Origin: Pirellulales bacterium
Lineage (GTDB): Bacteria > Planctomycetota > Planctomycetia > Pirellulales > Thermoguttaceae
NCBI GenBank assembly: GCA_016935315.1
Contig: JAFGRD010000099.1
Span: forward strand, 1-64,000
Reading direction: 5' to 3'
Length of the DNA: 64,000 nucleotides
The notes under the pieces were generated by a model, which searched no databases, was not told the origin of the DNA, and was given only the letters and a program-made list of their open reading frames with translations. The translations under genes and the position numbers were made by a program. Below, one piece after another: positions 36,625 through 50,244 of this stretch. Within the stretch, counting starts at the first letter, position 1; the number at the start of each line of letters is the position of its first letter.

Positions 36625-38973
36625 ATGAGCGAACTCGATCTCAGCTTTGTTGACCAAGCGGTCGAACAGTGGGGCCGTCGCCCGGAAGCGGTGATCCCAA
36701 TTCTCCAGGCGATCCAAACCCATTACCGCTACCTGCCGCGGGAAGCCCTGCGGCGGGTGTGCGAGAGAACCGACATCACGCCCGCTGTGATTACCGGCGT
36801 GTCGACGTTCTACACCCAGTTCCGCCATCGCCCGGTCGGCCGCCACATGATCAGCGTCTGTCACGGGACCGCGTGCCACGTCAAGGGGGCGGGGCTGGTC
36901 CAGGACGCGCTGGAACGCCATTTGCGCCTCGATGGCGGCGAAGACACCGACGCCAAGGGGTTGTTCACCATCGAGAAGGTCGCCTGCCTGGGGTGTTGCA
37001 CGCTGGCTCCAGTCGTGCAGATCGACGGCGTGACCTACGGCCATGTCACGCCGGGTATGGTCGGCGACGTGCTGGACGACTTCCTGCACCACCAGAAACA
37101 GGGGCCTCCGAAACACCACGACGCCCGCGCGGTGCCAACCGGCGAGGTGGGCGAGATCCGCGTTGGTTTGGGGTCCTGTTGCGTGGCCAACGGCAGCGGA
37201 AAGGTCCACCATGCCATTTGGGAAACCTTGACCGAAGCCGGGGCGCCCGCCGTAGTCAAGCGGGTGGGCTGCGTCGGCATGTGTCACCAGACGCCGTTGG
37301 TCGAGCTGGTGGCGCCGAACGGATCCTCGAAGCTCTTCGCCAAGGTCACTGCCGAAGACGTTCCGGGCATCGTGCTGAAGCATTTCAAGCCCAAGGGAAT
37401 GGCGCGACGCGTCGGCTACTCGATCTCCCGATGGCTGAACCGCATGCTGACCGACGAGACCGGCGACCCGACCGTCCGGCGAGGGATCGACGTCCGTGAC
37501 GGACCGGTGTGCGCGTTTCTCGGAAAGCAGCAACACCTGGCCACCGAGGCATGCGGCCAGATCGATCCGACGGACCTTGACGAGTATCTCCGCCACGGGG
37601 GATTCGAATCGCTGCGTCGCTGCATCGAAGAGCTTTCGCCGGAAGCAATGATCGAAGAAGTTCGAGCCAGCGGACTGCGAGGCCGTGGCGGGGCCGGCTT
37701 TCCCACCGGCGTGAAATGGGCCAAGGTCCGTGCCGCGGCGGGTGACAAGAAGTACATCATCTGCAACGGCGACGAGGGCGACCCCGGCGCGTTCATGGAC
37801 CGGATGCTGCTGGAATCCTTCCCCTACCGGATCATCGAGGGCCTGGCCATCGCGGCCCGGGCCGTCGGCGCCGACGAAGGCGTCTTTTACATCCGGGCCG
37901 AGTACCCCCTGGCCGTGAAACGCATCGCCGAAGCGCTGGCGGTCTGCGAGGATCGCGGCCTGCTCGGCCAAAACGTGATGGGCAGCGAATTCGGGCTGCG
38001 GCTTTCGATCATGGAAGGGGCCGGGGCGTTCGTCTGCGGAGAAGAGACCGCCCTGTTGGCCTCGATCGAAGGCCGCCGCGGAATGCCGCGATTGCGTCCA
38101 CCCTATCCGGCCGAGCAGGGGCTGTGGGGGAAGCCGACCTCGGTTAACAACGTGGAGACCTATGCCCTGGTGCCGTGGATCTTCCGCCACGGCGCCGAGG
38201 CCTTTGCCCGGCTGGGCACCGAAAAGAGCAAGGGAACCAAGGTCTTCGCCCTGGCCGGCAAGATCCGCCGCGGTGGTCTGATTGAGGTACCGATGGGGAT
38301 CACGATCGGGCAGATCGTCGAGGACATCGGCGGCGGAATCGCCGGCGACAAGCGTTTCAAGGCGGTTCAGGTGGGAGGACCGTCCGGCGGATGCGTGCCC
38401 GCCGAAATGGCCGACACCCGCGTCGACTACGAGGCCCTGGCCGAGGTCGGCGCGATCATGGGTTCCGGCGGCCTGGTCGTGCTCGACGAATCCGACTGCA
38501 TGGTTGATATCGCCAGGTACTTCCTCCGCTTTACCCAAGACCAGTCGTGCGGCAAGTGTACCTTCTGCCGCATCGGCACCCGGCGGATGCTCGACATCCT
38601 CGACCGCATTTGCACCGGTGAAGGCAAGTCGGGCGACCTGGAGCAGCTTGAGCGTCTGGCCCACGAGATCAAGGCGGGCAGCATCTGCGGGCTCGGTGGA
38701 ACGGCCCCGAACCCCGTGCTGTCCACACTACACTATTTTCGTGAGGAATACGAGGCCCACCTTCAGGGGCGCTGCCCGGCGGGCAAGTGTGCGGCGCTGA
38801 TCGACTACCGCGTCACGGACGACTGCATCGGCTGCACGCTCTGTGCGCAACACTGTCCGGCCGAGGCCATCCGGATCACACCCTACGTAAAACACACCAT
38901 CGATCTCGACAAGTGCACCCGTTGCGACACCTGCCGCCAGGTTTGTCCGACCCAGGCGATCCTCGTCGAGTAG
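36625..38973 (+). CDS. NuoE-NuoF fusion with extra [2Fe-2S] and 2x[4Fe-4S] domains (HndA/HndC-like)
   Basis: 782-residue NADH-oxidising flavoprotein. Residues 1-155 are a NuoE-type thioredoxin-like [2Fe-2S] domain (C79, C84, C121, C125). Residues 175-255 are a second thioredoxin-like [2Fe-2S] domain (C185/C186, C216, C220). Residues 330-700 are NuoF: FMN/NADH segments LRGRGGAGFPTGVKWAK and NGDEGDPGAFMDR, and the [4Fe-4S] motif CGKCTFCRIGT near 642. The C-terminus adds two ferredoxin [4Fe-4S] clusters (CIGCTLCAQHCP near 734, CTRCDTCRQVCP near 764). Separate HndA/HndC or HydC/HydB subunits of NAD(P)-linked, partly electron-bifurcating hydrogenases have these parts; here they form one chain. The cytoplasmic role is NADH oxidation or NAD+ reduction. 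SD absent. Confidence 0.9.
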   Translation: MSELDLSFVDQAVEQWGRRPEAVIPILQAIQTHYRYLPREALRRVCERTDITPAVITGVSTFYTQFRHRPVGRHMISVCHGTACHVKGAGLVQDALERHLRLDGGEDTDAKGLFTIEKVACLGCCTLAPVVQIDGVTYGHVTPGMVGDVLDDFLHHQKQGPPKHHDARAVPTGEVGEIRVGLGSCCVANGSGKVHHAIWETLTEAGAPAVVKRVGCVGMCHQTPLVELVAPNGSSKLFAKVTAEDVPGIVLKHFKPKGMARRVGYSISRWLNRMLTDETGDPTVRRGIDVRDGPVCAFLGKQQHLATEACGQIDPTDLDEYLRHGGFESLRRCIEELSPEAMIEEVRASGLRGRGGAGFPTGVKWAKVRAAAGDKKYIICNGDEGDPGAFMDRMLLESFPYRIIEGLAIAARAVGADEGVFYIRAEYPLAVKRIAEALAVCEDRGLLGQNVMGSEFGLRLSIMEGAGAFVCGEETALLASIEGRRGMPRLRPPYPAEQGLWGKPTSVNNVETYALVPWIFRHGAEAFARLGTEKSKGTKVFALAGKIRRGGLIEVPMGITIGQIVEDIGGGIAGDKRFKAVQVGGPSGGCVPAEMADTRVDYEALAEVGAIMGSGGLVVLDESDCMVDIARYFLRFTQDQSCGKCTFCRIGTRRMLDILDRICTGEGKSGDLEQLERLAHEIKAGSICGLGGTAPNPVLSTLHYFREEYEAHLQGRCPAGKCAALIDYRVTDDCIGCTLCAQHCPAEAIRITPYVKHTIDLDKCTRCDTCRQVCPTQAILVE

Positions 38974-39008
38974 CAACCGCTTTCGCCGCCGACGGCTCCA
39001 CACCCACC

Positions 39009-40610
39009 ATGCCGAAGCTCACGATCGACCAACGCGAAGTGGAAGTTCCCCCGGGCACGACGATCCTGGAGGCCGCCCGCAAGCTGCACATCGAGATTCC
39101 CACGCTCTGTCACCGCGAGGGCGTCGCGCCGTCGACCTCGTGTCTGGTGTGTATGGTGAAGATCTCCGGCGTCAATCGCCTGGTGCCCTCGTGTGCCACG
39201 ATGGCTGTCGACGGCATGAAGATCGAAAGCGAGACCGAGGAAGTGCACCAGGTCCGGCGATCGGCGCTGGAACTGCTGCTGAGCGACCACCTGGGCGACT
39301 GTCTTGCGCCTTGCTACATCGCCTGCCCGGCGCGGATGGACATCCCATTGATGCTTCGCCAGATTGCTGCCGAGGACCTAGGAGCCGCCGTCGCCACAGT
39401 GAAGAACGACATCGCGCTTCCGGCCGTCTTGGGGCGGATCTGCCCGGCGCCGTGCGAGAAGGCCTGCCGCCGCCGGCCGGCCGACGGGGCCGTGGCCATC
39501 TGCCGATTGAAGCGTTTCGTGGCCGACGTGGACCTTGCCGGCGCCGATCCCTACTTGCCGGAGTGCCGGTCGGACTCGGGCAGGCGCGTGGCAATCGTCG
39601 GCGCGGGGCCCACGGGCCTAGCCGCCACCTATTACCTGCGGCGTCAAGGCCACGCTTGCACCATCTTCGACGAAAACCAACAGCCCGGCGGTCGTTTGCG
39701 GCGCGAGACCACCGAGGACCAACTCCCTCGTCAGGTGCTCGACGCAGAAATCGAGCAGATCCTCCGGCTCGGCGTTGAGCTGTGTCTGGACATCCGCGTC
39801 GACGGCAAGGAGGCGAGCGACGATTTGCAGAACGAGTTCGACGCGATCCTGATCGCCTGCGGAAGATCGGCCGCCGACCAGGCCGAGGCCTGGGGGCTGG
39901 ATTTGTCATCGCGTGGAATCGCGGTCGAGAAGGCGAGCTATCAGACGGGTATGCGGCGCGTCTTTGCCGCGGGCGGTGCGATCCGCGCCAGCGGGCTGGT
40001 GGTCCGCAGCGTGGCCGACGGAAAAGAGGCGGCTGTTTCCATCGACCAGTTGCTCCGCGGCCAACCGGTCACCGGGCCCAAGCAGCCGTTTAACACGAAG
40101 ATCGGACGCCTGGAGGCGGAGGAGCTTCTGCAATTGACGGCCGCTGCGGGCGAGTCGCCGCTGCGCGATCCGGCCGACGGACCCGACGCCGGTTACGCCT
40201 GGGGCGAAGCGATCGAGCAGGCGGCCCGATGCCTGCACTGCGACTGCCGTAAGCTGGAATCTTGTAAGTTGCGCAAGTATGCCGCCCTCTATGGGGCCGA
40301 CCCCCGGCGCTATCCGGCCCCGCGCCGCGCCTTCCACCTGGATCGGCAGCACGCCGAGATCATCTACGAGCCGGGCAAGTGCATCGCCTGTGGTCTCTGC
40401 GTGGAGATTGCCGCAGTCGCCAGCGAGCCGCTGGGGCTTACGTTTATTGGCCGGGGCTTCGACGTTCGCGTGGGCGTGCCGCTCGACGGGTCGCTTCGTG
40501 ACGCGCTGGCCAAGGTGGCCGCCGAATGTGTGGAGGCCTGTCCCACCGCGGCGCTATCGCGTGGCGAAAACACGTCGAAAGAAGCTGCGCTTCGCGAGCC
40601 CGCCGTTTGA
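39009..40610 (+). CDS. NuoG-type [2Fe-2S] / GltD-like flavoprotein, NAD(P)H domain not seen
   Basis: 533 residues, 35 bases after the NuoE-NuoF fusion and probably its partner. An N-terminal [2Fe-2S] domain (C34, C45, C48, C62) leads to a GltD-like Fe-S region (C98, C102, C106 and CPAPCEKACRR) and an FAD site VAIVGAGPTGLAATYYLRRQ near residue 195. In GltD a second Rossmann domain for NADPH interrupts the FAD domain. Here the chain runs from EFDAILIACGRS directly to the closing FAD strand RRVFAAGGA, so that domain seems missing. The C-terminus has cysteine motifs CLHCDCRKLESCKL, CIACGLC and CVEACPTAAL, the first ferredoxin set being incomplete. No hydrogenase H-cluster is present. It may relay electrons between NuoF and the membrane polyferredoxin. 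Confidence 0.85.
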   Translation: MPKLTIDQREVEVPPGTTILEAARKLHIEIPTLCHREGVAPSTSCLVCMVKISGVNRLVPSCATMAVDGMKIESETEEVHQVRRSALELLLSDHLGDCLAPCYIACPARMDIPLMLRQIAAEDLGAAVATVKNDIALPAVLGRICPAPCEKACRRRPADGAVAICRLKRFVADVDLAGADPYLPECRSDSGRRVAIVGAGPTGLAATYYLRRQGHACTIFDENQQPGGRLRRETTEDQLPRQVLDAEIEQILRLGVELCLDIRVDGKEASDDLQNEFDAILIACGRSAADQAEAWGLDLSSRGIAVEKASYQTGMRRVFAAGGAIRASGLVVRSVADGKEAAVSIDQLLRGQPVTGPKQPFNTKIGRLEAEELLQLTAAAGESPLRDPADGPDAGYAWGEAIEQAARCLHCDCRKLESCKLRKYAALYGADPRRYPAPRRAFHLDRQHAEIIYEPGKCIACGLCVEIAAVASEPLGLTFIGRGFDVRVGVPLDGSLRDALAKVAAECVEACPTAALSRGENTSKEAALREPAV

Positions 40611-40708: not shown

Positions 40709-43700
40709 CTACGCCTTCTCCGGCTTGCCGTAAAGCAGCCAGTACACGACCGGGATCACCAGCAGCGTAAACAGGGTCGACGTGAGGATGCCGAAGATGA
40801 TCGCCCAGGCGAGCCCCGAGAAAATCGGGTCCAGCGTGATCACCCAGTTGCCCAGCAACGTCGTGCCCGCGGTCAGCAAAATGGGCCGCGTGCGAACCGC
40901 CACGCTCTGGATGACCGCCTCGCGCATCGACAGCCCGTTCGCCTGGCCGTGGTAGATGAAGTCGATCAGGACGACCGAGTTGCGGACGACGATTCCCGCC
41001 AGGGCGATCATGCCGATCATGGCCGTGGCCGTGAGGAAGACCGGATTGGGGTAGCCGCTCTCACTCGGTCCGATTGGTCGATCCAGAAGGACGTTCAGCA
41101 GCCAGAAGCCCGGCATGATTCCGATCATCGTCAACGGGATGGCCAGCATGATCACGATCGGGAGCATTCGGGAGCCGGTCTGGAACATCAGGACGACGAA
41201 GATGCCCACCAGAGCCGCTCCAAAAGCCAGCCCCAGATCACGGAACACGTCGAGTGTAATCTTCCACTCTCCTTCGCCCGCCCAGTTGACGGTGTAGCCC
41301 ACCGGCATCGCCCAGGGATCGCCGCCGCCGGGCGAAAGCCACGTGCGTTCGGCGAGCGGTCGCGGATGGGCGGCCGGCTTCGGCCGCCTGCCGTCCGGTT
41401 GGCGGTCGAACTGCATGTCGATGATCGCATCGGCCGGCGGGCGTCCGGCCACTTCACCGTAGACGTAGACCACGCGGCGCAGGTTCTTGTGGTAGATCGT
41501 CTTGTCCTCCGGCGCTTGGACGAACTGGCCCAATGCGCCAACCTGCACGAGTTGCCCTTGTTGCCCCACCACGTACAGCTCCTCCAGATCGTCGGCCGCC
41601 GAGCGGACGGCCCGTTTCACGCGCAGATCCACCCAGAGCGGATCGACTTCGCCGGGCACTTGCAGAATCGTGGTCGGCAAGCCGCTGAGAGCGAGTTGCA
41701 GCGTCTTGGCGAGGTTCTCCGTCGACACGCCCGAAAGGGCCGCCTTGGGCTTATCCGTCTCGAAAATCAGTCGCGGCTGATCGGCCTCGGCGCTAATGTC
41801 TACATCGACGATGTGCTCTTCCCGGCTCATGCGGGCCTCGACGCGTCGCGCGGCCGCGATCAACTCGTCGTAGCCGGCCTCGGGCGGGCCGTAGACTTCG
41901 GCCGTGATGCTGGCGATCACCGGCGGACCGGGCGGAACCTCGACCAGCTTGATGTTGGCCCCGGCCTGCTCGGCGATCCGTGTAAGGTCGTCGCGGATCC
42001 GCAGCAGCATCACGTGCGACTGCTGGGCCCGTTGTTCCTTGGGCGCCAGGTTCACACGAATGTCGGCCAAGTTGGGGCTACGGCGGAGGAAATAATGGCG
42101 CACCATGCCGTTGAAGTCCATCGGCGAGGCCAGCCCGACGTAAAGCTGGTAATCGCGGACCTCGGCCACGCCGGCCAGGTATGCGCCGAGTTGCCGCGTC
42201 ACGGCGTCAGTCGCCTGCAGCGTCGTGCCTTCCGGCATGTCGACGACGATCTGGAACTCGTTCTTGTTGTCGTAGGGAAGCATTTTCAGCGGCACCACCC
42301 GGAACGCCGGTAAGGCCATGGCAGCCGCCAACAGCACCGCCACGCCGGCCAACGTGGCCCAAGCCAGCCAGCGGCGGTCGAGAATCGGGTTGAGCACCGC
42401 TCGGCTGATCCGATAGACGGGCCGGGTGGTCAGATCGAACGCCTTTTCGCCGCTGGGGCGCTCGATGAGCTTGCGCAACGCCACCATGGCCGACCAGGGC
42501 GTGATCACGAACGCCACGAGCGTGGACACCGTCACGGTCAGCGGCACGTTCAGCGCCATCGGCGCCATGTACGGCCCCATCATGCCGGTGATGAACGTCA
42601 ACGGCAGGAAGCTGACGATGATCGCCAGCGTCGAGAGGATCAACGCCGGTCGCACCTCCTGAATCGCCTTGAGAACCGACTGACGCGGCCCCAGGACTCG
42701 CATGGCAAAGTATCGGGCGATATTCTCCACGTCGGTAATCGGGTCGTCGACCAGCAGCCCCAACGAGAGGATCAGGGCAAACAGCGTGACCCGGTTGATC
42801 GAGTAGCCGGCCAACAAGTTGATAAACAGCGTCAGGCTGTAGCAGACGGGGATGGCCAGCGCAACCACCAGCGCCGCCCGCCAGCCGATCACCAGGCCGA
42901 TCAGCCCGACCACTGTCAACACGGCGATGAACAGGCTTTCGACCAGCTCGTTGACCTTTTCGTTGGCCGTTTCGCCGTAGTCGCGGGTGATGCGGAAGTA
43001 GACGCCGTCGGGCAGGTGCGTTTCGGCCAGTTCGTGCATGCGGTGCTCGACCGCGTCGGCCACCCAAACCGCATTTTCCCCTTTCTTCTTGGCCACCGCG
43101 ATATGGACGGCCGGATAGACGCGCCCGTCCGGCGACGACGGGCCCTTCAACGCGGGTGTGTCCCGGGGAGTTCGGGGATTCTCGGCGGCCGGCCCGAATC
43201 CGATCCAACCGTAGCTGTCCGTCTCGGCCGGACCGTCCAGCACGGTGGCCACGTCCTTCAGGTACACGGGCCGGTTGCCCGAGAGCCCGATCACCAGGTT
43301 CTGCAAATCTCGCGCGTCGCCGACGAACGTCCCCGCGTCGACGACGAACTCGGTGTCCTGTTGCTCAAACTGCCCGGCACGCACCTGGACGTTGCTCGCC
43401 CGCAGGGCATCGGCGACCTGCAGCGCGGAGGTGCGCCGGGCGGCCAGCCGCACGGGATCCAGCTCGACGCGGATCCGCCGCGGGCGTCCGCCGATGACCC
43501 ACACCTGGTTCGTGTTGGGAATGGCCTGCAACTCGTTTTGCAGTTGCTCGGCCATGCGGCGCAACTGGTAATCGCCGTAGAGTTCCGTCCGGTCACTCCA
43601 AAGTGTGACGTTGACGATCGGCACGTCGTCGACTTCGATCGGCTTGACTACCCAGCCGGCCACTTCCGGCGGCACGCGGTCGGCGTTGGAGTGGATCTTA

Positions 43701-44074
43701 TTGTAGAGCTTGACGATCGAGTCCTCGCGGTCTTCGCCCACGTAGAAGCGAACCGTGACAATGCACTGTTCCGGGCGAGACATCGAATAGACGTATTCGA
43801 CGCCGTCGATCTGGGTGAGCAGTTTCTCCACCCGGGCGGTGATTTTCTCCTCCACCAGGCGGGCCGACAGGCCGGGGGCCGAAACGAAGACATCGGCCAT
43901 GGGCACGACAATCTGGGGCTCTTCCTCGCGCGGCGTCAGATAGAGCGACACCGCCCCCAGCACGACCGACACAACGACCAGCAAGAGGGCCACGTCGCCG
44001 CGCAGGAAGACCTCGACCAATCGAGTCATCCAGGGAGTCTTTTCATCCGTGTTGCTCATGGCTTCGTTGCTCAT
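40709..44074 (-). CDS. RND-family efflux transporter, inner-membrane pump
   Basis: 1121-residue AcrB-type proton-driven pump. The N-terminal helix (VALLLVVVSVVLGAVSLYLT), two large periplasmic loops and twelve expected helices fit the family. The paired TM4 aspartates for proton relay are in LGLLVDDPITDVENIARYFA. The class resembles HAE-type rather than metal CusA pumps; the substrate is not evident. I start at 44074 (SD GAGGAA six bases upstream); a 15-base duplication provides a second ATG at 44059. It lies 10 bases after the HlyD-type adaptor. No TolC-like outer-membrane partner is in the window. Confidence 0.92.
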   Translation of the reverse strand: MSNEAMSNTDEKTPWMTRLVEVFLRGDVALLLVVVSVVLGAVSLYLTPREEEPQIVVPMADVFVSAPGLSARLVEEKITARVEKLLTQIDGVEYVYSMSRPEQCIVTVRFYVGEDREDSIVKLYNKIHSNADRVPPEVAGWVVKPIEVDDVPIVNVTLWSDRTELYGDYQLRRMAEQLQNELQAIPNTNQVWVIGGRPRRIRVELDPVRLAARRTSALQVADALRASNVQVRAGQFEQQDTEFVVDAGTFVGDARDLQNLVIGLSGNRPVYLKDVATVLDGPAETDSYGWIGFGPAAENPRTPRDTPALKGPSSPDGRVYPAVHIAVAKKKGENAVWVADAVEHRMHELAETHLPDGVYFRITRDYGETANEKVNELVESLFIAVLTVVGLIGLVIGWRAALVVALAIPVCYSLTLFINLLAGYSINRVTLFALILSLGLLVDDPITDVENIARYFAMRVLGPRQSVLKAIQEVRPALILSTLAIIVSFLPLTFITGMMGPYMAPMALNVPLTVTVSTLVAFVITPWSAMVALRKLIERPSGEKAFDLTTRPVYRISRAVLNPILDRRWLAWATLAGVAVLLAAAMALPAFRVVPLKMLPYDNKNEFQIVVDMPEGTTLQATDAVTRQLGAYLAGVAEVRDYQLYVGLASPMDFNGMVRHYFLRRSPNLADIRVNLAPKEQRAQQSHVMLLRIRDDLTRIAEQAGANIKLVEVPPGPPVIASITAEVYGPPEAGYDELIAAARRVEARMSREEHIVDVDISAEADQPRLIFETDKPKAALSGVSTENLAKTLQLALSGLPTTILQVPGEVDPLWVDLRVKRAVRSAADDLEELYVVGQQGQLVQVGALGQFVQAPEDKTIYHKNLRRVVYVYGEVAGRPPADAIIDMQFDRQPDGRRPKPAAHPRPLAERTWLSPGGGDPWAMPVGYTVNWAGEGEWKITLDVFRDLGLAFGAALVGIFVVLMFQTGSRMLPIVIMLAIPLTMIGIMPGFWLLNVLLDRPIGPSESGYPNPVFLTATAMIGMIALAGIVVRNSVVLIDFIYHGQANGLSMREAVIQSVAVRTRPILLTAGTTLLGNWVITLDPIFSGLAWAIIFGILTSTLFTLLVIPVVYWLLYGKPEKA

Positions 44075-44084
44075 GGCTTCCTCG

Positions 44085-45317
44085 CTACGCCCCTTTCTGC
44101 CCAATCGGCTCTCCGACCGCGTCGGATTCCATCGGCGGCCCGGCGGGCGCTTCGTCGACCGACGGTGCAACGGGCGGATCTTCGGCCGATGGCCCGAGGG
44201 ACTGATTCTCGGGCGGGGGATCCACCAGCACGTTCTCGCCGGCCTTCAACCCACTGAGCACTTCCACACGGCCGGGCATGCCCAACCGGCCGGTCGTGAT
44301 CATGCGGCGCTGCTTCGTGTGCTGTTCAAGATCGACCACCTCGACGAACTGCAGTTGGCCGATGGTGTCGATGGCATCCGTGGCCAGGCACAGGTGACGT
44401 CGGGTGCCGGCGGGAATCAGCAGTCGGCCGGCCATCCCCTCGAACATCCCTTCAGAGCGAGGTAAGGCCACTTTCACCAGGAACGATCGGCTGGCCACCT
44501 CGGCCTGGGGCACGATCTCGTCGACCGTGGCCTCGACGTTTCGCTGCAGGGCGTCGATACGAACGGCCAGCGTGTCGCCCACCTTGAGCTTCACCGCCAG
44601 GTTTTCCATTACCGGCACCTCCAGACGTAGCGAGGCCGGATCATAGAGGACCAACAGCGGCACGCCGGGTTGAGCCATGTCGCCCTCCTCGGCCAGCCGC
44701 TCGACGATCATGCCTGCCTTGGGCGCATTGATCGTCGTGTACGAGATCAGCACGTCCGACTCGGCCAGCGCTTGCTGTGCGTGGTTCAAGTTGGCCCGGG
44801 CCACCTGGAGATTGGCGGTTGCCTGGTCCATGACCTCGGCACTAACCGCCCTTTTTTCAAAGGCCTGCGCGGCGCGCCGATAGTCATTCTCCGCCTGAGT
44901 CAGCGCCGCTTGGGCCCCCACTAGCGCGGCCTGCGCCTGACTTCGCTGGGTTTCCAGCGCCCGCCGATCCAACTCGACCAGCACATCACCCGCCTGCACC
45001 AGCTTTCCGCTGGTGACCAGGATTTTGTTGATCGGGGCCAGGATGCGCGAGGCGATGTCGGTGCGGCTGGCTGCCTTGAGCGTACCGAGGGCCTCTTCAT
45101 AGTAATCCTTGGTCACCTCATGCACCTGGTCGATGTGGTTTTCCTCCTCGGACGTAAGCTTGCGCAGCGTGACCTCCATCTCCTCCGGCTGAATCTTCTT
45201 CTCGAATACGCCCGCCATCCAGGCGATTACCGCCACCAGACACACGAGAAAGATCAGCCCCGCAGCCAGGGGAACGAAGGTCTTCAGCACACCCGTAACG
45301 GTTGATTTCAGTCTCAT
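44085..45317 (-). CDS. RND periplasmic adaptor subunit (HlyD/membrane fusion protein)
   Basis: 410 residues. One N-terminal membrane helix (LAAGLIFLVCLVAVIAWMAG), a lipoyl-like half (ILAPINKILVTSGKLVQAGD), a coiled-coil hairpin (about 120-185), the second lipoyl half (TINAPKAGMIVERLAEEGD) and a beta-barrel domain occur in the usual order. The C-terminal tail is long, Pro- and Glu-rich, and probably disordered. GGGAGA is well placed before 45317. It lies 13 bases downstream of the bd-like partner subunit and 10 bases upstream of the pump gene, so one mRNA is likely. Confidence 0.9.
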   Translation of the reverse strand: MRLKSTVTGVLKTFVPLAAGLIFLVCLVAVIAWMAGVFEKKIQPEEMEVTLRKLTSEEENHIDQVHEVTKDYYEEALGTLKAASRTDIASRILAPINKILVTSGKLVQAGDVLVELDRRALETQRSQAQAALVGAQAALTQAENDYRRAAQAFEKRAVSAEVMDQATANLQVARANLNHAQQALAESDVLISYTTINAPKAGMIVERLAEEGDMAQPGVPLLVLYDPASLRLEVPVMENLAVKLKVGDTLAVRIDALQRNVEATVDEIVPQAEVASRSFLVKVALPRSEGMFEGMAGRLLIPAGTRRHLCLATDAIDTIGQLQFVEVVDLEQHTKQRRMITTGRLGMPGRVEVLSGLKAGENVLVDPPPENQSLGPSAEDPPVAPSVDEAPAGPPMESDAVGEPIGQKGA

Positions 45318-45330
45318 TGGAGATCTCCCT

Positions 45331-46470
45331 TCAGACACCGCTCTGCCCCGGCTCAGTCGCCGACGCCTTGACTGCCTGAGCAATCACCCAGCCGATCACG
45401 CCCAGGCCCGCCACGAATACGGCCAAGAACAGGATCAACGGGCTGACCTGGACTTCTTCTCGGATTGCGGCCACGTCGAGGTACGCCTTGAGCTCCAGGT
45501 TCTGGACGACCTGTCGGCTGGTCGCGTTGACCGCCAAAACACCCAACTGGGCCAAGGCGATCCCCAGGGCCGTCGCACGCCTCGGCGCCTGCTTACGGCC
45601 CAACGCCATCAAGATCCACGGCAATCCGGGAGCCAGGGCGGTGGCGATCATCAGCACGTGCAGCCACCCTGTCGACATCGACGCTCGCAATCCCGCCTGC
45701 CAAGCCCCGAATACATACCAGCTCCCGGCAGCCGCAAACCAGATCGCGCCCGCGGTGTGCAGCTTCCAGGCGAAGCTCGAAGCCCACTGCCGGTAGGTTT
45801 CGTTCTCTTTGCGGGCAAACCAGGCGGCATCGACCACCAGCCAGGCGGCGGTGGTCATCAGCGCCAGCCCGAACATCAGCAGCCAACGGGGCCAGAACGT
45901 GCGATCGGCCACGTTCAGCGCCGTTCCCAAGGTCGCACCGCCAACGCTGTGGTTCTCCCACAGTCGCGACCAGGCACCGACGTTGGTCATCAGGCTCCAC
46001 CCGTTCGCAAACAAGAAGCCGATCAGGATGAAGAGCATCGCCGCCCCCCACCCGGCAGCCTTCCGCCAAGAAGCCAAGCCGGCTTGCTCGTTGCGCAGCC
46101 CCAAGGCATAGGCGTACACGCCGTAGTAAGCCGGAATCAGAAGCCCGACGATGGCCAGCCAGAACCAGGCCGTCAGAATCGTGGCCGAATAGAAGGCCTT
46201 ATAGTAGGCGACCTGGACGAACAACAACGGCACGATGCCGAAGTTAATGCCCAACGCGACCAGCACGGGCATCTGCGTCATCAGCCGCCCGGAAAAACGT
46301 CTGCCGTGCTCGCTGCCGCACAGGTGCAAGACCATCGCCAACAGCAGCCCGGCGTACCAGAGATTCATCGGCACCATGTGGAGCGTGAAGCCCAATGCCT
46401 TGAAGAACTGGACGAACCAGTACGGGGCCGGCATGGCGGACAGGCCGTGGGGATCGATCGGTGGCATCAT
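45331..46470 (-). CDS. Polytopic membrane partner of the bd-like cytochrome
   Basis: 379 residues with about nine hydrophobic helices. Histidines stand in membrane-proximal positions near the N-terminus (H31 in GFTLHMVPMN, H49 in LAMVLHLCG), which could be heme ligands. Its place directly after the cytochrome bd-like gene, with ATGA overlap, suggests a two-subunit complex as in CydAB, though sequence similarity to CydB is not obvious to me. It might be a second subunit of the divergent bd superfamily. AGGAGG precedes the tandem ATGATG start; 46467 is an alternative. Confidence 0.7.
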   Translation of the reverse strand: MMPPIDPHGLSAMPAPYWFVQFFKALGFTLHMVPMNLWYAGLLLAMVLHLCGSEHGRRFSGRLMTQMPVLVALGINFGIVPLLFVQVAYYKAFYSATILTAWFWLAIVGLLIPAYYGVYAYALGLRNEQAGLASWRKAAGWGAAMLFILIGFLFANGWSLMTNVGAWSRLWENHSVGGATLGTALNVADRTFWPRWLLMFGLALMTTAAWLVVDAAWFARKENETYRQWASSFAWKLHTAGAIWFAAAGSWYVFGAWQAGLRASMSTGWLHVLMIATALAPGLPWILMALGRKQAPRRATALGIALAQLGVLAVNATSRQVVQNLELKAYLDVAAIREEVQVSPLILFLAVFVAGLGVIGWVIAQAVKASATEPGQSGV

Positions 46471-47873
46471 GGGGCCTCCTGCACGGCGGGCAACGGGAAC
46501 ATGCCTTCCGGTCGCGGCGGAGCGATCTCCGCCAGGTAGTTGGTTATCAACTCGGCTTCTTCGGGGGTTCCAGCCCACGGCGGCATGAAGAAATGGGCCC
46601 CGTGCAGGTCGTCGATCACCGCCCGGATCATGGCCGGCGACCGGCCCCGGATCAGCGGTCCCACGGCTGAGTAGCCCTGGTGGATCGCGTGGCAGTCGTT
46701 GCAGTGATACTGGAAGAGCACCTCGCCCAAGGCAATCCGGTCGCTGTGGGGCAGTGCCAACAGGCGTTTCTCATCGATTCGGTCGCCGTCCAGCGCGCCG
46801 GGATAGTGCTGCTTGACGTACTCCCGCGTCCAGATTCCCCCTTCCAAATACCCCGTTTTTTGCAGGCCGGGGACTGCTTCCGAACCGAAGACATCGCCCG
46901 GCAGAACCTGGTTGCCCAGTACGACGTTGTAGATGATGTACGGCTTGCGGACGGCCTCGCGGACGAACTCGCCGATGCTGAACACGGCGATCCCGAACAG
47001 AAACAGCGCCAGGGCAAAGCCCGGAGAAAGCCAGCCTGGATTGCGGTATGGCCCCAGGTACAGCAGCACAAACACGGCCGCCGTCAGCGCGAAGATCAGC
47101 CCCATGAAGACGTTCAGCGCCGCGGCTCGCACGAGAACCGCCTGGGCCAGTTCGGGCAGGAATCCGTACCAGGACAGCCCGCCGGCGGTGACCAAGGCCG
47201 CGCCGAGCAATGCCGGTCTGGCGGAACGCTGTTCGATCAGGTCGCGCAGGCGGCCGTCGCGGATCGTCAGCGAGGCGTGCAAGTAGACGTAAAGCGAGCT
47301 GAGCAACAACGCGCCGCCCGTTCGAGCGATGGTCTGAGGGATAAACTGGGGATTGAGGAACGCCTTCCAGAAACTGTCGCCGGGACGCCAGTCACCAGGA
47401 TTGAGCATGAACGCCGTGATGCCGGTAATCAACACCAGGCTGATCCAAGCCGCCATGGCATAGATCCAGCCGATCGCCACGTGCGTCTTTTCGGCGAGCC
47501 GGCCCCAGTAGTAGTAGAAAACGAAAGCCGCCGTGATCTCGACGAAGAAGAAGACCCATTCAATGGCCCAACCGAAGACGAACGTGCGGATGAGCACTTC
47601 GGTTGCCAACGGGGAAGCCAGGCCGATCGTCCACCAGATGCCCACCCCGGTAATCGCGCCGAAGACCACGGTCAGCAGAATGAAGAAACGCCCGTGGCGT
47701 TTCAAGTAGGCAAGGTACTCGCGATCCCCGCTGCGATAGGCCTTGCCGGTCTCGACCGCCAGGAAGAGACCGCCTCCCACCGCATAGTGGGACACCAGAA
47801 CGTGAACCACCGAAATAACGGCGATCAGCATCGGCGCGGTCACGTATGGAACGTACCACCATGGATAGTGCAT
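46467..47873 (-). CDS. Cytochrome bd-like subunit I with C-terminal heme c domain
   Basis: 468 residues. The helical part matches the CydA superfamily: HVLVSHYAVGGGLFLAVETG (H24, H29) at the position of the first heme ligand and AIEWVFFFVEITA with E105 and E112, like the paired glutamates of CydA helix 3. The quinol-binding Q-loop typical of CydA is not recognisable. A c-type domain follows with CNDCH at 391-395 and a candidate Met ligand at 430 (FFMPPW). Divergent bd-superfamily members with fused cytochrome c are known from genomes but poorly characterised. The electron donor may be a cytochrome rather than quinol. AAAGGA stands 12 bases upstream of the start. Confidence 0.82.
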   Translation of the reverse strand: MHYPWWYVPYVTAPMLIAVISVVHVLVSHYAVGGGLFLAVETGKAYRSGDREYLAYLKRHGRFFILLTVVFGAITGVGIWWTIGLASPLATEVLIRTFVFGWAIEWVFFFVEITAAFVFYYYWGRLAEKTHVAIGWIYAMAAWISLVLITGITAFMLNPGDWRPGDSFWKAFLNPQFIPQTIARTGGALLLSSLYVYLHASLTIRDGRLRDLIEQRSARPALLGAALVTAGGLSWYGFLPELAQAVLVRAAALNVFMGLIFALTAAVFVLLYLGPYRNPGWLSPGFALALFLFGIAVFSIGEFVREAVRKPYIIYNVVLGNQVLPGDVFGSEAVPGLQKTGYLEGGIWTREYVKQHYPGALDGDRIDEKRLLALPHSDRIALGEVLFQYHCNDCHAIHQGYSAVGPLIRGRSPAMIRAVIDDLHGAHFFMPPWAGTPEEAELITNYLAEIAPPRPEGMFPLPAVQEAP

Positions 47874-47993
47874 CGCAGGTTGAGTCCTTTCTGCGGAGTA
47901 CTACCCCCTCGGGGGAAAAACCGATCTGGAGCACGAATCTCGCTGCCCGCGGGCATGTGACCCGACCCTGCGACATGGGCGTCTCGACGGGAG

Positions 47994-48227
47994 CTATGGG
48001 CGGACACCTCCGGATGTCGTCCCGCCAGGTGACGCCACGCACGGCCGCAGGCCGAGCCAGCCCAACAACCATACCATCGGACACCAATTCGTGAAAGCCG
48101 ACTGAAAGAGGTTCAGACCGGCGAAGGCCGTCAAGAACAGCCAGAAGGGGCTCTGGAAAGCGGCCAGTAAGACGCTTGCCGTGACTACGATCCCGGCAAC
48201 CATGCGCAATCCCTGTTCGATTGTCAT
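47994..48227 (-). CDS. DUF2892 (YgaP-type) inner-membrane protein
   Basis: 77 residues. Two helices (GIVVTASVLLAAFQSPFWLFL and a second) are followed by SAFTNWCPMVWLLGWLGLRP, the CP-containing signature of the DUF2892 family, which also forms the membrane part of the YgaP rhodanese. No rhodanese domain is attached here. GAGGAAA lies upstream of the ATG. It sits between the 31-residue membrane peptide and the bd-like gene. The conserved Cys could take part in sulfur or thiol chemistry, but that is inference. Confidence 0.82.
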   Translation of the reverse strand: MTIEQGLRMVAGIVVTASVLLAAFQSPFWLFLTAFAGLNLFQSAFTNWCPMVWLLGWLGLRPCVASPGGTTSGGVRP

Positions 48228-48310
48228 TGTATTTCCTCTATCTCCTCCATTTCCACGGGGGCTTTTTCACTAACGGTCGGGCGCGGATCCACCGCGCAAG
48301 AGTTCGACAT

Positions 48311-48406
48311 TCACGTGGCCACGCCGAACCGGGGCAACACCCAGCGGTTCAGCACAAACCACAAAACCAGCACGGCGATCAGGAAGCCGATTTCTTTCAG
48401 ACCCAT
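48311..48406 (-). CDS. 31-residue single-helix membrane protein
   Basis: A short gene from ATG 48406 with a strong SD (GAGGAG) at correct spacing. The peptide is almost one hydrophobic helix (IGFLIAVLVLWFVLNRWVLP) with a short polar N-terminus, and it stops at 48311. Size and topology recall CcoQ- or CydX-type small subunits that stabilise heme-copper or bd oxidases. Its place in the bd-like operon makes that role plausible; similarity cannot be shown at this length. Confidence 0.6.
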   Translation of the reverse strand: MGLKEIGFLIAVLVLWFVLNRWVLPRFGVAT

Positions 48407-48477
48407 GCAGCGCTCCTCTCTTGTTCGTTCACCTGAGGCGTTTTTGTCTGTGTGGTTGGGCTTGTCTGCCACAACTT

Positions 48478-48729
48478 TCAAGCCTCCTGCGAGGGAAACA
48501 TCGCTTCCCATCGCTCTCGCAGCAAGTGGCGAAGGTGTTGGTGCAACTCGCAGGGCAGTTCCACAGTCTGCCCGCACTTGTACAGGGTGATCGTCTGACG
48601 GATGTTGTCGATCACCACCTCACAGGGGCAGCATCCCTCCAAATGTTCTCGAAAGCTCTCGTAGACCTCAGGATCGAGGCTGCCGTCGAGGTAGTCGCCC
48701 AGTGCGGCCAGCAGCTCTTCGCACTTCAT
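48478..48729 (-). CDS. Anti-sigma factor-like zinc protein (zf-HC2 type)
   Basis: 83 residues. It begins MKCEELLAALGDYLDGSLDP and has the HxxxCxxC zinc signature (HLEGCCPC), as in ZAS-type anti-sigma factors. No membrane helix and no adjacent sigma factor are present. A second cysteine region (LYKCGQTVELPCELH) could complete another metal site. It may be a redox-responsive regulator of the downstream genes. AGGAA stands six bases before the ATG. It is the first gene of the minus-strand set that runs down to the RND pump. Confidence 0.72.
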   Translation of the reverse strand: MKCEELLAALGDYLDGSLDPEVYESFREHLEGCCPCEVVIDNIRQTITLYKCGQTVELPCELHQHLRHLLRERWEAMFPSQEA

Positions 48730-49047
48730 AAATCGTTCCTGTTCAAGGGGTTCTGCTATTACTGATGCGCGGGGTGCCCCGTTGGTTACAGCCGAGCCGC
48801 GCGTTGCGGGAAATCACCGGCGGGTGCGTTCCCACAACGTGACCGCCCTATTCCTCAACAGCAACGGCCGCCGCTCCGCCTCGGTCGCGGAGGGGAACCG
48901 GCACACGTCGTCCTTAAGTGCCTTGTTGGCAAGATCTTATGGCTACGATTGCTCGCCATCCCGATTCGTGGCGCCCCTTGGCATGCCGCTTGCGATGTCT
49001 GGGGCTCGTTGCGAGTGAACCCCGCACAAGCCCCCAAGGTCCAAATC
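48730..49047. other. Divergent intergenic region
   Basis: 318 bases between the Zn-protein gene (minus) and the glycosyltransferase (plus). I see no gene, repeat copy or clear promoter pair. A short GGGGTGCCCC inverted repeat occurs near 48774. Confidence 0.35.
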
Positions 49048-50244
49048 ATGGCATCTCTCGCCCTGGTCGAATACCCCGGATCGTCGAAAGCCGGCCACCC
49101 CCAACGCCCACAAGAGGTTCGGCCTCAGTCGATTCGTGTATTGCATGTGATCAATGGGGAACACTACGCCGGGGCCGAGCGAGTCCAGGATCTGCTGGCC
49201 CAAGAGCTTCCGCAGTTCGGATTCCAGGTGGGGCTGGCCTGTATCAAGCCGGGACGCTTCCCCGAAATGCGACAGACTCAGGACGTGCCGCTGTACGAGT
49301 TGCCCATGCGGCATCGGTTCGACTTGCGGGCTGTCTGGCGGCTGGTGCAGGTCATCCGTCGTGAGGGGTACCAATTGGTTCACGCCCACACCGCTCGATC
49401 CGCACTGATCGCCGCCCTGGCCTCGATCATCACCGGCGTTCCCATGGTCCACCATGTCCACAGCCCCACCGCTCACGACACGACCCACCGGTGGCGAAGC
49501 CGGATCAATGCCCTGGTCGAGCGCCTGAGCCTTGCCCGGGCGTCTGCCCTGATCGCCGTGTCTGCCAGCTTGGGGCGACACACGCGGCGGCGCGGGTTTC
49601 GCAGCGAGAAGGTCTCGGTGGTGCCCAACGGCGTGCCTTCGCGACGTCCGGTAGCTCGACGCTTGCCGCCGCGAGCCCAATGGACCTTGGGAACGGTTGC
49701 CCTATTTCGCCCCCGCAAGGGTCTCGAAGTTCTGCTGCAGGCCCTGGCGACATTGCGGTCGCAAGGCCTGGCCGTGCGACTACGGGCGGTGGGCGACTTC
49801 GAGACGCCTGAATACCAGCGGCGGATCCAGGATCTGGTCGAAGAACTCTCGCTCGCCGACGCGATCGACTGGACGGGCTTCCGGCAGGACATCGACGCGG
49901 AATTGGCGCAGATGGACCTGTTCGTCTTGCCGAGCTTGTTCGGCGAGGGTTTGCCGATGGTCGTGCTGGAGGCCATGGCGGCGGGCGTACCGGTGGTGGC
50001 CACGCGCGTCGAAGGGGTCCCGGAGGCCGTTCGCGACGGCCGCGACGGCGTAATCGTCGAGCCGAACGACCCGGACGCCTTGGCGGCCGGACTGCAAAGC
50101 GTCGTCACCGGCCGCGTCGATTGGCAATCGTTGCGAGAGAGTGCGGCCCGGCGGCACGCCTCGAGATTCTCGGAAAAAAGCATGGCTGCCGGCGTGGCGG
50201 AAGTCTATCGCCGCCTGACTTCCGCCTTTGCCCTCGCGCATTGA
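49048..50244 (+). CDS. GT4-type glycosyltransferase (GT-B fold)
   Basis: 398 residues. The N-terminal half starts with VLHVINGEHYAGAERVQDLL, a donor/acceptor glycine loop typical of the GT4 family. The C-terminal half has VALFRPRKGLEVLLQAL and the nucleotide-sugar E-x7-E motif in FGEGLPMVVLEAMAAGVPVVAT. It probably transfers a sugar to a surface glycan precursor in the cytoplasm. ATG 49048 has AAGG eight bases upstream; a longer start is possible. The last codons (..FALAH-stop) are made of a partial copy of repeat family 1, so the natural C-terminus has been altered by the repeat. Confidence 0.86.
   Translation: MASLALVEYPGSSKAGHPQRPQEVRPQSIRVLHVINGEHYAGAERVQDLLAQELPQFGFQVGLACIKPGRFPEMRQTQDVPLYELPMRHRFDLRAVWRLVQVIRREGYQLVHAHTARSALIAALASIITGVPMVHHVHSPTAHDTTHRWRSRINALVERLSLARASALIAVSASLGRHTRRRGFRSEKVSVVPNGVPSRRPVARRLPPRAQWTLGTVALFRPRKGLEVLLQALATLRSQGLAVRLRAVGDFETPEYQRRIQDLVEELSLADAIDWTGFRQDIDAELAQMDLFVLPSLFGEGLPMVVLEAMAAGVPVVATRVEGVPEAVRDGRDGVIVEPNDPDALAAGLQSVVTGRVDWQSLRESAARRHASRFSEKSMAAGVAEVYRRLTSAFALAH

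Follow-up and report, generated by a model that had tools for sequence, protein, structure and literature searches.

We analysed a stretch of 64,000 nucleotides from a Pirellulales bacterium (assembly GCA_016935315.1, contig JAFGRD010000099.1, positions 1 to 64,000), hereafter the window, and focused on seven genes of its minus strand, which run from 48729 to 40709. In transcription order they encode a zf-HC2 protein, a 31-residue peptide (pep31), a DUF2892 protein, a cytochrome bd-type pair (bdA and bdB), and the HlyD-type adaptor and permease of a resistance-nodulation-division (RND) efflux pump. Our analysis favors the view that this operon is an output of an RsrA-like circuit, formed by an extracytoplasmic function (ECF) sigma factor and its zinc anti-sigma factor, that would respond to thiol and sulfur redox stress. 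The new result is a common signal, at the promoter level, joining the oxidase and pump operon to thiol and sulfur genes. The features of the operon are the following.

48764..48790, minus strand: predicted ECF sigma promoter, TGTAACC-N13-GCGCATC, 35 nucleotides upstream of the zf-HC2 start codon (conservation and profile score).
48478..48729, minus strand: zf-HC2 protein, an RsrA-like zinc anti-sigma factor of 83 residues (PF13490, E 1.1e-7, above cut-off).
48311..48406, minus strand: pep31, a single-helix membrane peptide of 31 residues (sequence and homologues).
47994..48227, minus strand: DUF2892 / YgaP-like_TM transmembrane protein (PF11127, E 3.3e-12; homologue alignment).
46467..47873, minus strand: bdA, a CydA-like oxidase subunit with a C-terminal c-type cytochrome (PF01654, E 2.3e-19; CxxCH).
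45331..46470, minus strand: bdB, a second subunit of CydA fold (A'-like), with no Pfam match (predicted fold).
44085..45317, minus strand: HlyD-type periplasmic adaptor of the RND pump (TIGR01730 RND_mfp, above cut-off).
40709..44074, minus strand: RND permease, HAE (multidrug) type by score (PF00873 ACR_tran, E 1.7e-144).

The evidence for a common signal comes from the promoter. Alignment of the regions upstream of zf-HC2 genes revealed a TGTAACC box and a GCGCATC box, with 15 to 16 nucleotides separating GTAAC from GCATC; the pattern typically lies 50 to 120 nucleotides ahead of the start codon and is conserved at about 20 distinct loci. Its copy in the window (48790-48764) has a profile score of 26.5 bits, against 12.6 bits for the next-best site. 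Across 62 genomes of the family, TGTAACYN{12,13}GCGCATC occurs 40 times, compared with 4 times for the reversed control. We fetched 25 sites located away from zf-HC2 genes, read the genes downstream and assigned them to Pfam families: thioredoxin genes follow eight of these sites, DsbD three, multiheme cytochrome clusters three, pep31 or DUF2892 genes three, YeeE/YedE sulfur transport genes two and MacA-type efflux genes two (one of them accompanied by an AhpD-like CMD gene), the remaining four being unclear. The presence of such sites tracks that of zf-HC2 across genomes (13/2/13/33; Fisher p 1.4e-4, relatedness of the genomes being ignored). In the host genome, a site with one mismatch (25.5 bits) precedes the gene of an exported thioredoxin. 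Co-regulation of the operon with thiol and sulfur genes through a common promoter is thus well supported computationally. A preliminary description of this DNA, made from its letters, had proposed that the operon answers a shared signal such as a redox-active or thiol compound; this idea gains support from the promoter common to thioredoxin, DsbD and YeeE/YedE genes, and further from the RsrA-like zinc anti-sigma factor and its cognate ECF sigma factor described below. As a separate observation, one relative (G002, L182:648-7611) carries behind the same ECF-type promoter a cluster of multiheme cytochrome, cytochrome b561, YeeE/YedE and rhodanese genes, adjoining thioredoxin and DUF2892 genes.

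A related arrangement is found in a second phylum. In a Blastocatellia genome (Acidobacteriota, L036), the zf-HC2 gene is followed by TolC, HlyD, RND and DUF2892 genes, and bdA-bdB diverge from them. There, three copies of a -35-like box, TTTGTAACYYTT, lie within 19 kb (0.01 expected): one ahead of zf-HC2, one ahead of TolC-HlyD-RND-DUF2892 and one ahead of the divergent bdA-bdB pair. Since the pattern was picked after its first copies had been seen, we take this count as support rather than proof; in this lineage too, a single signal would govern the anti-sigma factor, the pump and the oxidase.

The first protein of the operon has the residues expected of a zinc anti-sigma factor, C3, H29, C33 and C36 being invariant in 11 homologues. 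Its best NCBIfam model is TIGR03988 (RsrA), and because the score of 31.4 bits falls under the curated cut-off of 62.5 we call the protein RsrA-like rather than assigning it to RsrA. No sigma gene is present in the window's operon, and a screen of the host ECF genes by upstream motif gave no candidate. The partner was found through neighbors and fusions. An ECF gene directly adjoins zf-HC2 in four loci, two from Acidobacteriota (L035, L036) and two from other Planctomycetota (L171, L172), and in two further loci (L182, L184) the two are fused in one protein of 282 to 289 residues. The zf-HC2-linked ECF factors have a sole clear orthologue in the host (L296, contig C25, 7232-7846; 52 to 67% identity), nearly all other host alignments falling under 40%. 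Defined by a threshold of E 3e-69 or better (the next tier lies at 1e-38), this orthologue and zf-HC2 co-occur across 61 genomes (24/2/2/33, Fisher p 1.6e-12). By sequence, then, zf-HC2 is paired with a cognate ECF sigma factor. Autoregulation of the ECF gene through the same promoter was considered and rejected, as the promoter was not seen at that gene. In the fusions (L182:8802-9659 in G002 and L184:1450-2328 in G006, two genera of the family), the zf-HC2 domain lies N-terminal to the ECF sigma factor in a single open frame, which would amount to an unusual built-in inhibitor.

In the mechanism that we propose, the zf-HC2 protein would hold the ECF sigma factor encoded elsewhere, on contig C25. 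Oxidation or sulfuration of the zinc-cysteine site, an inducer and a switch that we infer, would release the sigma factor, leading to transcription from TGTAACC-N13-GCGCATC promoters. The released factor would drive the window operon, anti-sigma gene included, and the exported thioredoxin gene; in relatives, it would also drive DsbD, YeeE/YedE sulfur transport, multiheme cytochrome and other pump genes. The zf-HC2 gene heads an operon of its own predicted sigma factor, and the design would therefore be one of negative feedback. Among the products, bdA-bdB would receive electrons not from quinol but from a periplasmic cytochrome c, via their own heme c domain, and would reduce O2 at the conserved heme d/b595 site, lowering O2 or draining periplasmic electrons, and the HAE-type pump would export the offending, probably redox-active, compound.

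On sequence grounds the seven genes form one operon. The distances along it are 71, 83 and 120 bases, an ATGA overlap between bdA and bdB, 13 bases between bdB and HlyD and 10 between HlyD and RND; the genes, their order and the small gaps (at most 120 bases) all agree with the preliminary description. That text had named, as findings that would refute its proposal, promoters separating the cytochrome pair from HlyD and a lack of recurrence in other genomes. A search for sigma-70-like promoters inside the operon gave two hits, for a chance mean of 1.4, and none in the 13-base gap before HlyD. The same search region contains 13 terminator-like hits (6.8 expected), nearly all within coding sequence, and no riboswitch or other Rfam element was found at the operon. 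The set also recurs in other genera, with the same gene order and 50 to 80% protein identity, and in the Acidobacteriota genome; it is more than a chance grouping.

We surveyed this recurrence by gene-level comparison of 80 genome-contig loci and further stretches from genomes of the family. The full set (zfHC2-pep31-DUF2892-bdA-bdB-HlyD-RND) is present in G027 (L113) and G354 (L052/L180). Shorter versions comprise zfHC2-bdA-bdB-HlyD-RND (L033, L041), zfHC2-pep31-bdA-bdB-HlyD-RND (L056/L117), bdA-bdB-DUF2892-HlyD-RND (G013), and bdA-bdB-HlyD-RND (G035, and G004, there at a contig end). The pump is absent from zfHC2-pep31-DUF2892-bdA-bdB in four genomes (G371, G352, G023, G353). Because full, partial, bd-less and pump-less versions coexist among relatives, the operon joins a regulator/pump module to an oxidase module in an association that recurs but is loose. 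In a quick bdA tree, the linked sequences are scattered through the Planctomycetota clade and the linked label needs 7 changes, a number as low being reached in 1 of 500 shuffles. We do not retain a single origin of the bd-pump linkage, as the tree fits ancestral presence with repeated loss as well as repeated gain.

Several points weigh against a thiol-stress circuit that includes the oxidase. Redox sensing by the zf-HC2 protein is proposed by analogy with RsrA, the ECF gene has no such promoter of its own, and the Fisher tests ignore kinship among genomes. In the host genome, the number of two-mismatch sites is not above control and just two or three sites stand out as convincing, so that the cross-genome evidence carries the promoter argument. 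The modules are loosely associated: the pump module occurs without bd genes (zfHC2-pep31-DUF2892-HlyD-RND) in G001 and G014 (L176, L181), and the presence of bdA and zf-HC2 is uncorrelated across genomes (11/11/6/9), for which reason we rejected the idea that bdA constantly accompanies zf-HC2.

The main rival explanation draws on the same facts: the bd-like enzyme may be an ordinary low-oxygen respiratory or O2-scavenging oxidase, its link to the pump being historical rather than functional. Independence from zf-HC2 and pump modules lacking bd genes suit this explanation, as does the wide occurrence of bdA-bdB elsewhere without the rest of the set. In Acidobacteriota and HR bins (L042, L045, L083 and L108) and in one planctomycete (L050), bdA-bdB directly follow pyruvate:ferredoxin oxidoreductase, in most cases with a DHOD-like gene between, a placement that suggests a role in O2 protection in those lineages and is compatible with both explanations. 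An incidental link is harder to reconcile with the retention of the linkage in at least 8 distinct loci whose proteins have diverged, some of them in genomes where zf-HC2 and ECF genes did not turn up (G013, G035), and with the -35-like box ahead of bdA in the differently arranged Blastocatellia locus. We thus regard it as unlikely, and continue with the stress circuit as the preferred interpretation.

The oxidase module itself departs from canonical cytochrome bd in its predicted electron entry. The host genome (7.1 Mb, 172 contigs) encodes a single PF01654 protein and a single heme-copper oxidase. Structure comparison indicates that bdA has the eight-helix CydA fold (residues 12 to 324; Z 33 in a 311-residue match to Escherichia coli CydA) and that residues 376 to 453 form a C-terminal cytochrome c domain, which matches cytochrome c6 by fold. 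Ten residues are invariant in 42 sequences: H24, E105, E112, R184, E306, R309, C391, C394, H395 and M430. The last four provide the heme c motif (C391-x2-C394-H395, with M430), and H24, E105, E112, E306 and R309 are the equivalents of E. coli H19, E99, E107, E445 and R448 in an alignment to 5doq whose C-terminal part aligns weakly. The histidine ligand of heme b558 is replaced by the invariant Arg184 and the b558 methionine is also replaced, the latter in the weak part of the alignment; the Q-loop is absent, the predicted model having just short interhelix loops. With eight helices, the C terminus would be periplasmic, provided that the N terminus is periplasmic as in CydA. Since the heme d/b595 ligands are kept, the b558 and quinol features lost and heme c added, bdA appears to retain the site of the O2-reducing heme pair, with heme c replacing quinol entry. 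The second subunit, bdB, has a confident predicted fold (predicted local distance difference test score 90) that is closest to CydA chains (Z 29); it keeps H32, and a conserved counterpart of the CydA active-site glutamates was not seen by invariant-column analysis. It is therefore a CydA-like (A') chain by predicted fold, not a CydB by sequence. The heme c bd-type cytochrome of the preliminary description thus stands as regards bdA and its CxxCH, with the second subunit redefined as CydA-like. In a Bacteroidota and an Ignavibacteriota locus (L102:5378-9087 and L111:8950-12719), bdA is present as tandem duplicates followed by bdB.

Heme c attached to CydA is a feature of the OR-C family of the cytochrome bd superfamily, a family reportedly treated by Murali, Gennis and Hemp in 2021, and by sequence bdA-bdB resemble the OR-C family. 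The superfamily is divided into qOR, OR-C and OR-N, quinol sites defining qOR only (PMC10839748, PMC13189123). A further explanation is that the main substrate of the complex is NO, peroxide or a reactive sulfur species, rather than O2, and heme c the point where electrons enter or leave. The loss of the quinol and b558 entry, the divergent second subunit, the lack of a settled function for OR-C, and regulon partners such as YeeE/YedE with rhodanese and multiheme cytochromes are in line with this. We consider it improbable, given that the residues surrounding the O2-reducing heme pair of CydA are all kept and invariant; O2 as substrate and cytochrome c as donor are what we infer. A bolder version of the stress-circuit interpretation, which we find doubtful, would make the complex a dedicated effector of thiol or reactive-sulfur stress and not a respiratory terminal oxidase. 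Together with the RND pump and thioredoxin- or DsbD-type proteins, it might balance periplasmic thiol chemistry, possibly with a sulfur or nitrogen species as substrate, in place of O2 or in addition to it.

The permease scores 418 bits with RND_permease_2 and 219 bits with CusA/CzcA. It carries the aspartate pair of transmembrane helix 4 (TM4, LLVDDP) and, in TM10, an arginine at the position of AcrB Lys940. By score it would be of the HAE (multidrug) type rather than the metal type, and a metal-type assignment is disfavored; of the drug or metal efflux pair previously described, the RND pair is confirmed, with multidrug models outscoring metal ones. No TolC-type outer membrane channel gene was found within 40709-48729, the only stretch searched; the Blastocatellia operon has one. 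In a third explanation, metal or envelope stress would trigger the circuit, rather than thiol or sulfur stress, the zinc of zf-HC2 being lost to competing metals and the pump exporting metals. The sensor is indeed a zinc protein, and a study on Azospira suillum PS describes an H2S-induced operon of RND permease, adaptor and SQR, and a separate, also H2S-induced DUF2892 gene, its authors proposing metal-sulfide export by those pumps (PMC5358917). The far better fit of our permease to multidrug models, and other predicted targets that are mostly thiol-disulfide or sulfur genes, make metal or envelope stress a very unlikely signal.

The two small membrane proteins appear to belong to the regulon. 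Behind the same promoter, pep31 occurs without bd genes in L245, L259 and L262, and it is also present in G001 and G014, where bdA was not found. A CydX-like accessory role was rejected, since pep31 travels with the regulon and occurs without bd. Several homologues have a Cys-rich tail (TCMSGAC), which the window peptide, ending in GVAT, lacks. The DUF2892 protein carries an NWCP motif.

Outside the operon, genes for a NuoE/NuoF-type flavoprotein and a GltD-like Fe-S/NAD(P) oxidoreductase (36628-40607, plus strand) converge on it, and this pair also adjoins the bd operon of G353 (L186). A family-4 glycosyltransferase gene (48949-50241, plus strand) is divergent from the operon, and is likewise a neighbor of zf-HC2 in L173, L174, L175 and L189.

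In uncultured Planctomycetota, Acidobacteriota, Chloroflexota and Bacteroidota, bd-superfamily enzymes that carry a fused cytochrome c are common, and their function is not established. The promoter link to thioredoxin, DsbD and sulfur transport, together with an identified sigma/anti-sigma pair, offers a testable role for this oxidase family. If our interpretation is correct, Planctomycetota possess an RsrA-like disulfide-stress circuit, with natural anti-sigma-sigma fusions in two genomes.

Compared with known systems, the adaptor-permease pair and the TM4 Asp-Asp are reminiscent of HAE-type pumps of the AcrAB/MdtABC kind, from which the operon differs by its lack of an outer membrane channel gene, an Arg for the TM10 Lys, and a permease far under the curated cut-offs of named families. 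The H2S-induced SQR/RND operon of A. suillum shares, by gene type, an RND permease, an adaptor and DUF2892; a bd cytochrome, zf-HC2 and an ECF promoter were not seen in the passages that describe it (PMC5358917). Canonical CydAB (qOR) shares with bdA the fold (Z 33) and the equivalents of H19, E99, E107, E445 and R448, whereas bdA has no Q-loop, Arg184 for the b558 His, an added cytochrome c domain and a CydA-like partner. The likeness to OR-C lies in the CydA core with heme d/b595 residues, the absent quinol site and the C-terminal heme c, and the difference in the predicted tie to a thiol-stress regulon under ECF control and to an RND pump. Finally, SigR-RsrA of Streptomyces and SigH-RshA of Corynebacterium likewise feature a small cytoplasmic-type zf-HC2 anti-sigma factor with conserved Cys/His zinc residues, paired with an ECF factor, and the targets predicted here are mostly thioredoxin and thiol-disulfide genes. 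They differ in promoter (GGAAT/GTT is the SigR consensus, against TGTAACC...GCGCATC here), in the below-cut-off RsrA score of our protein, and in the sigma and anti-sigma genes, which are unlinked in the host genome and fused in two relatives; moreover, the targets predicted here include an oxidase and an RND pump.

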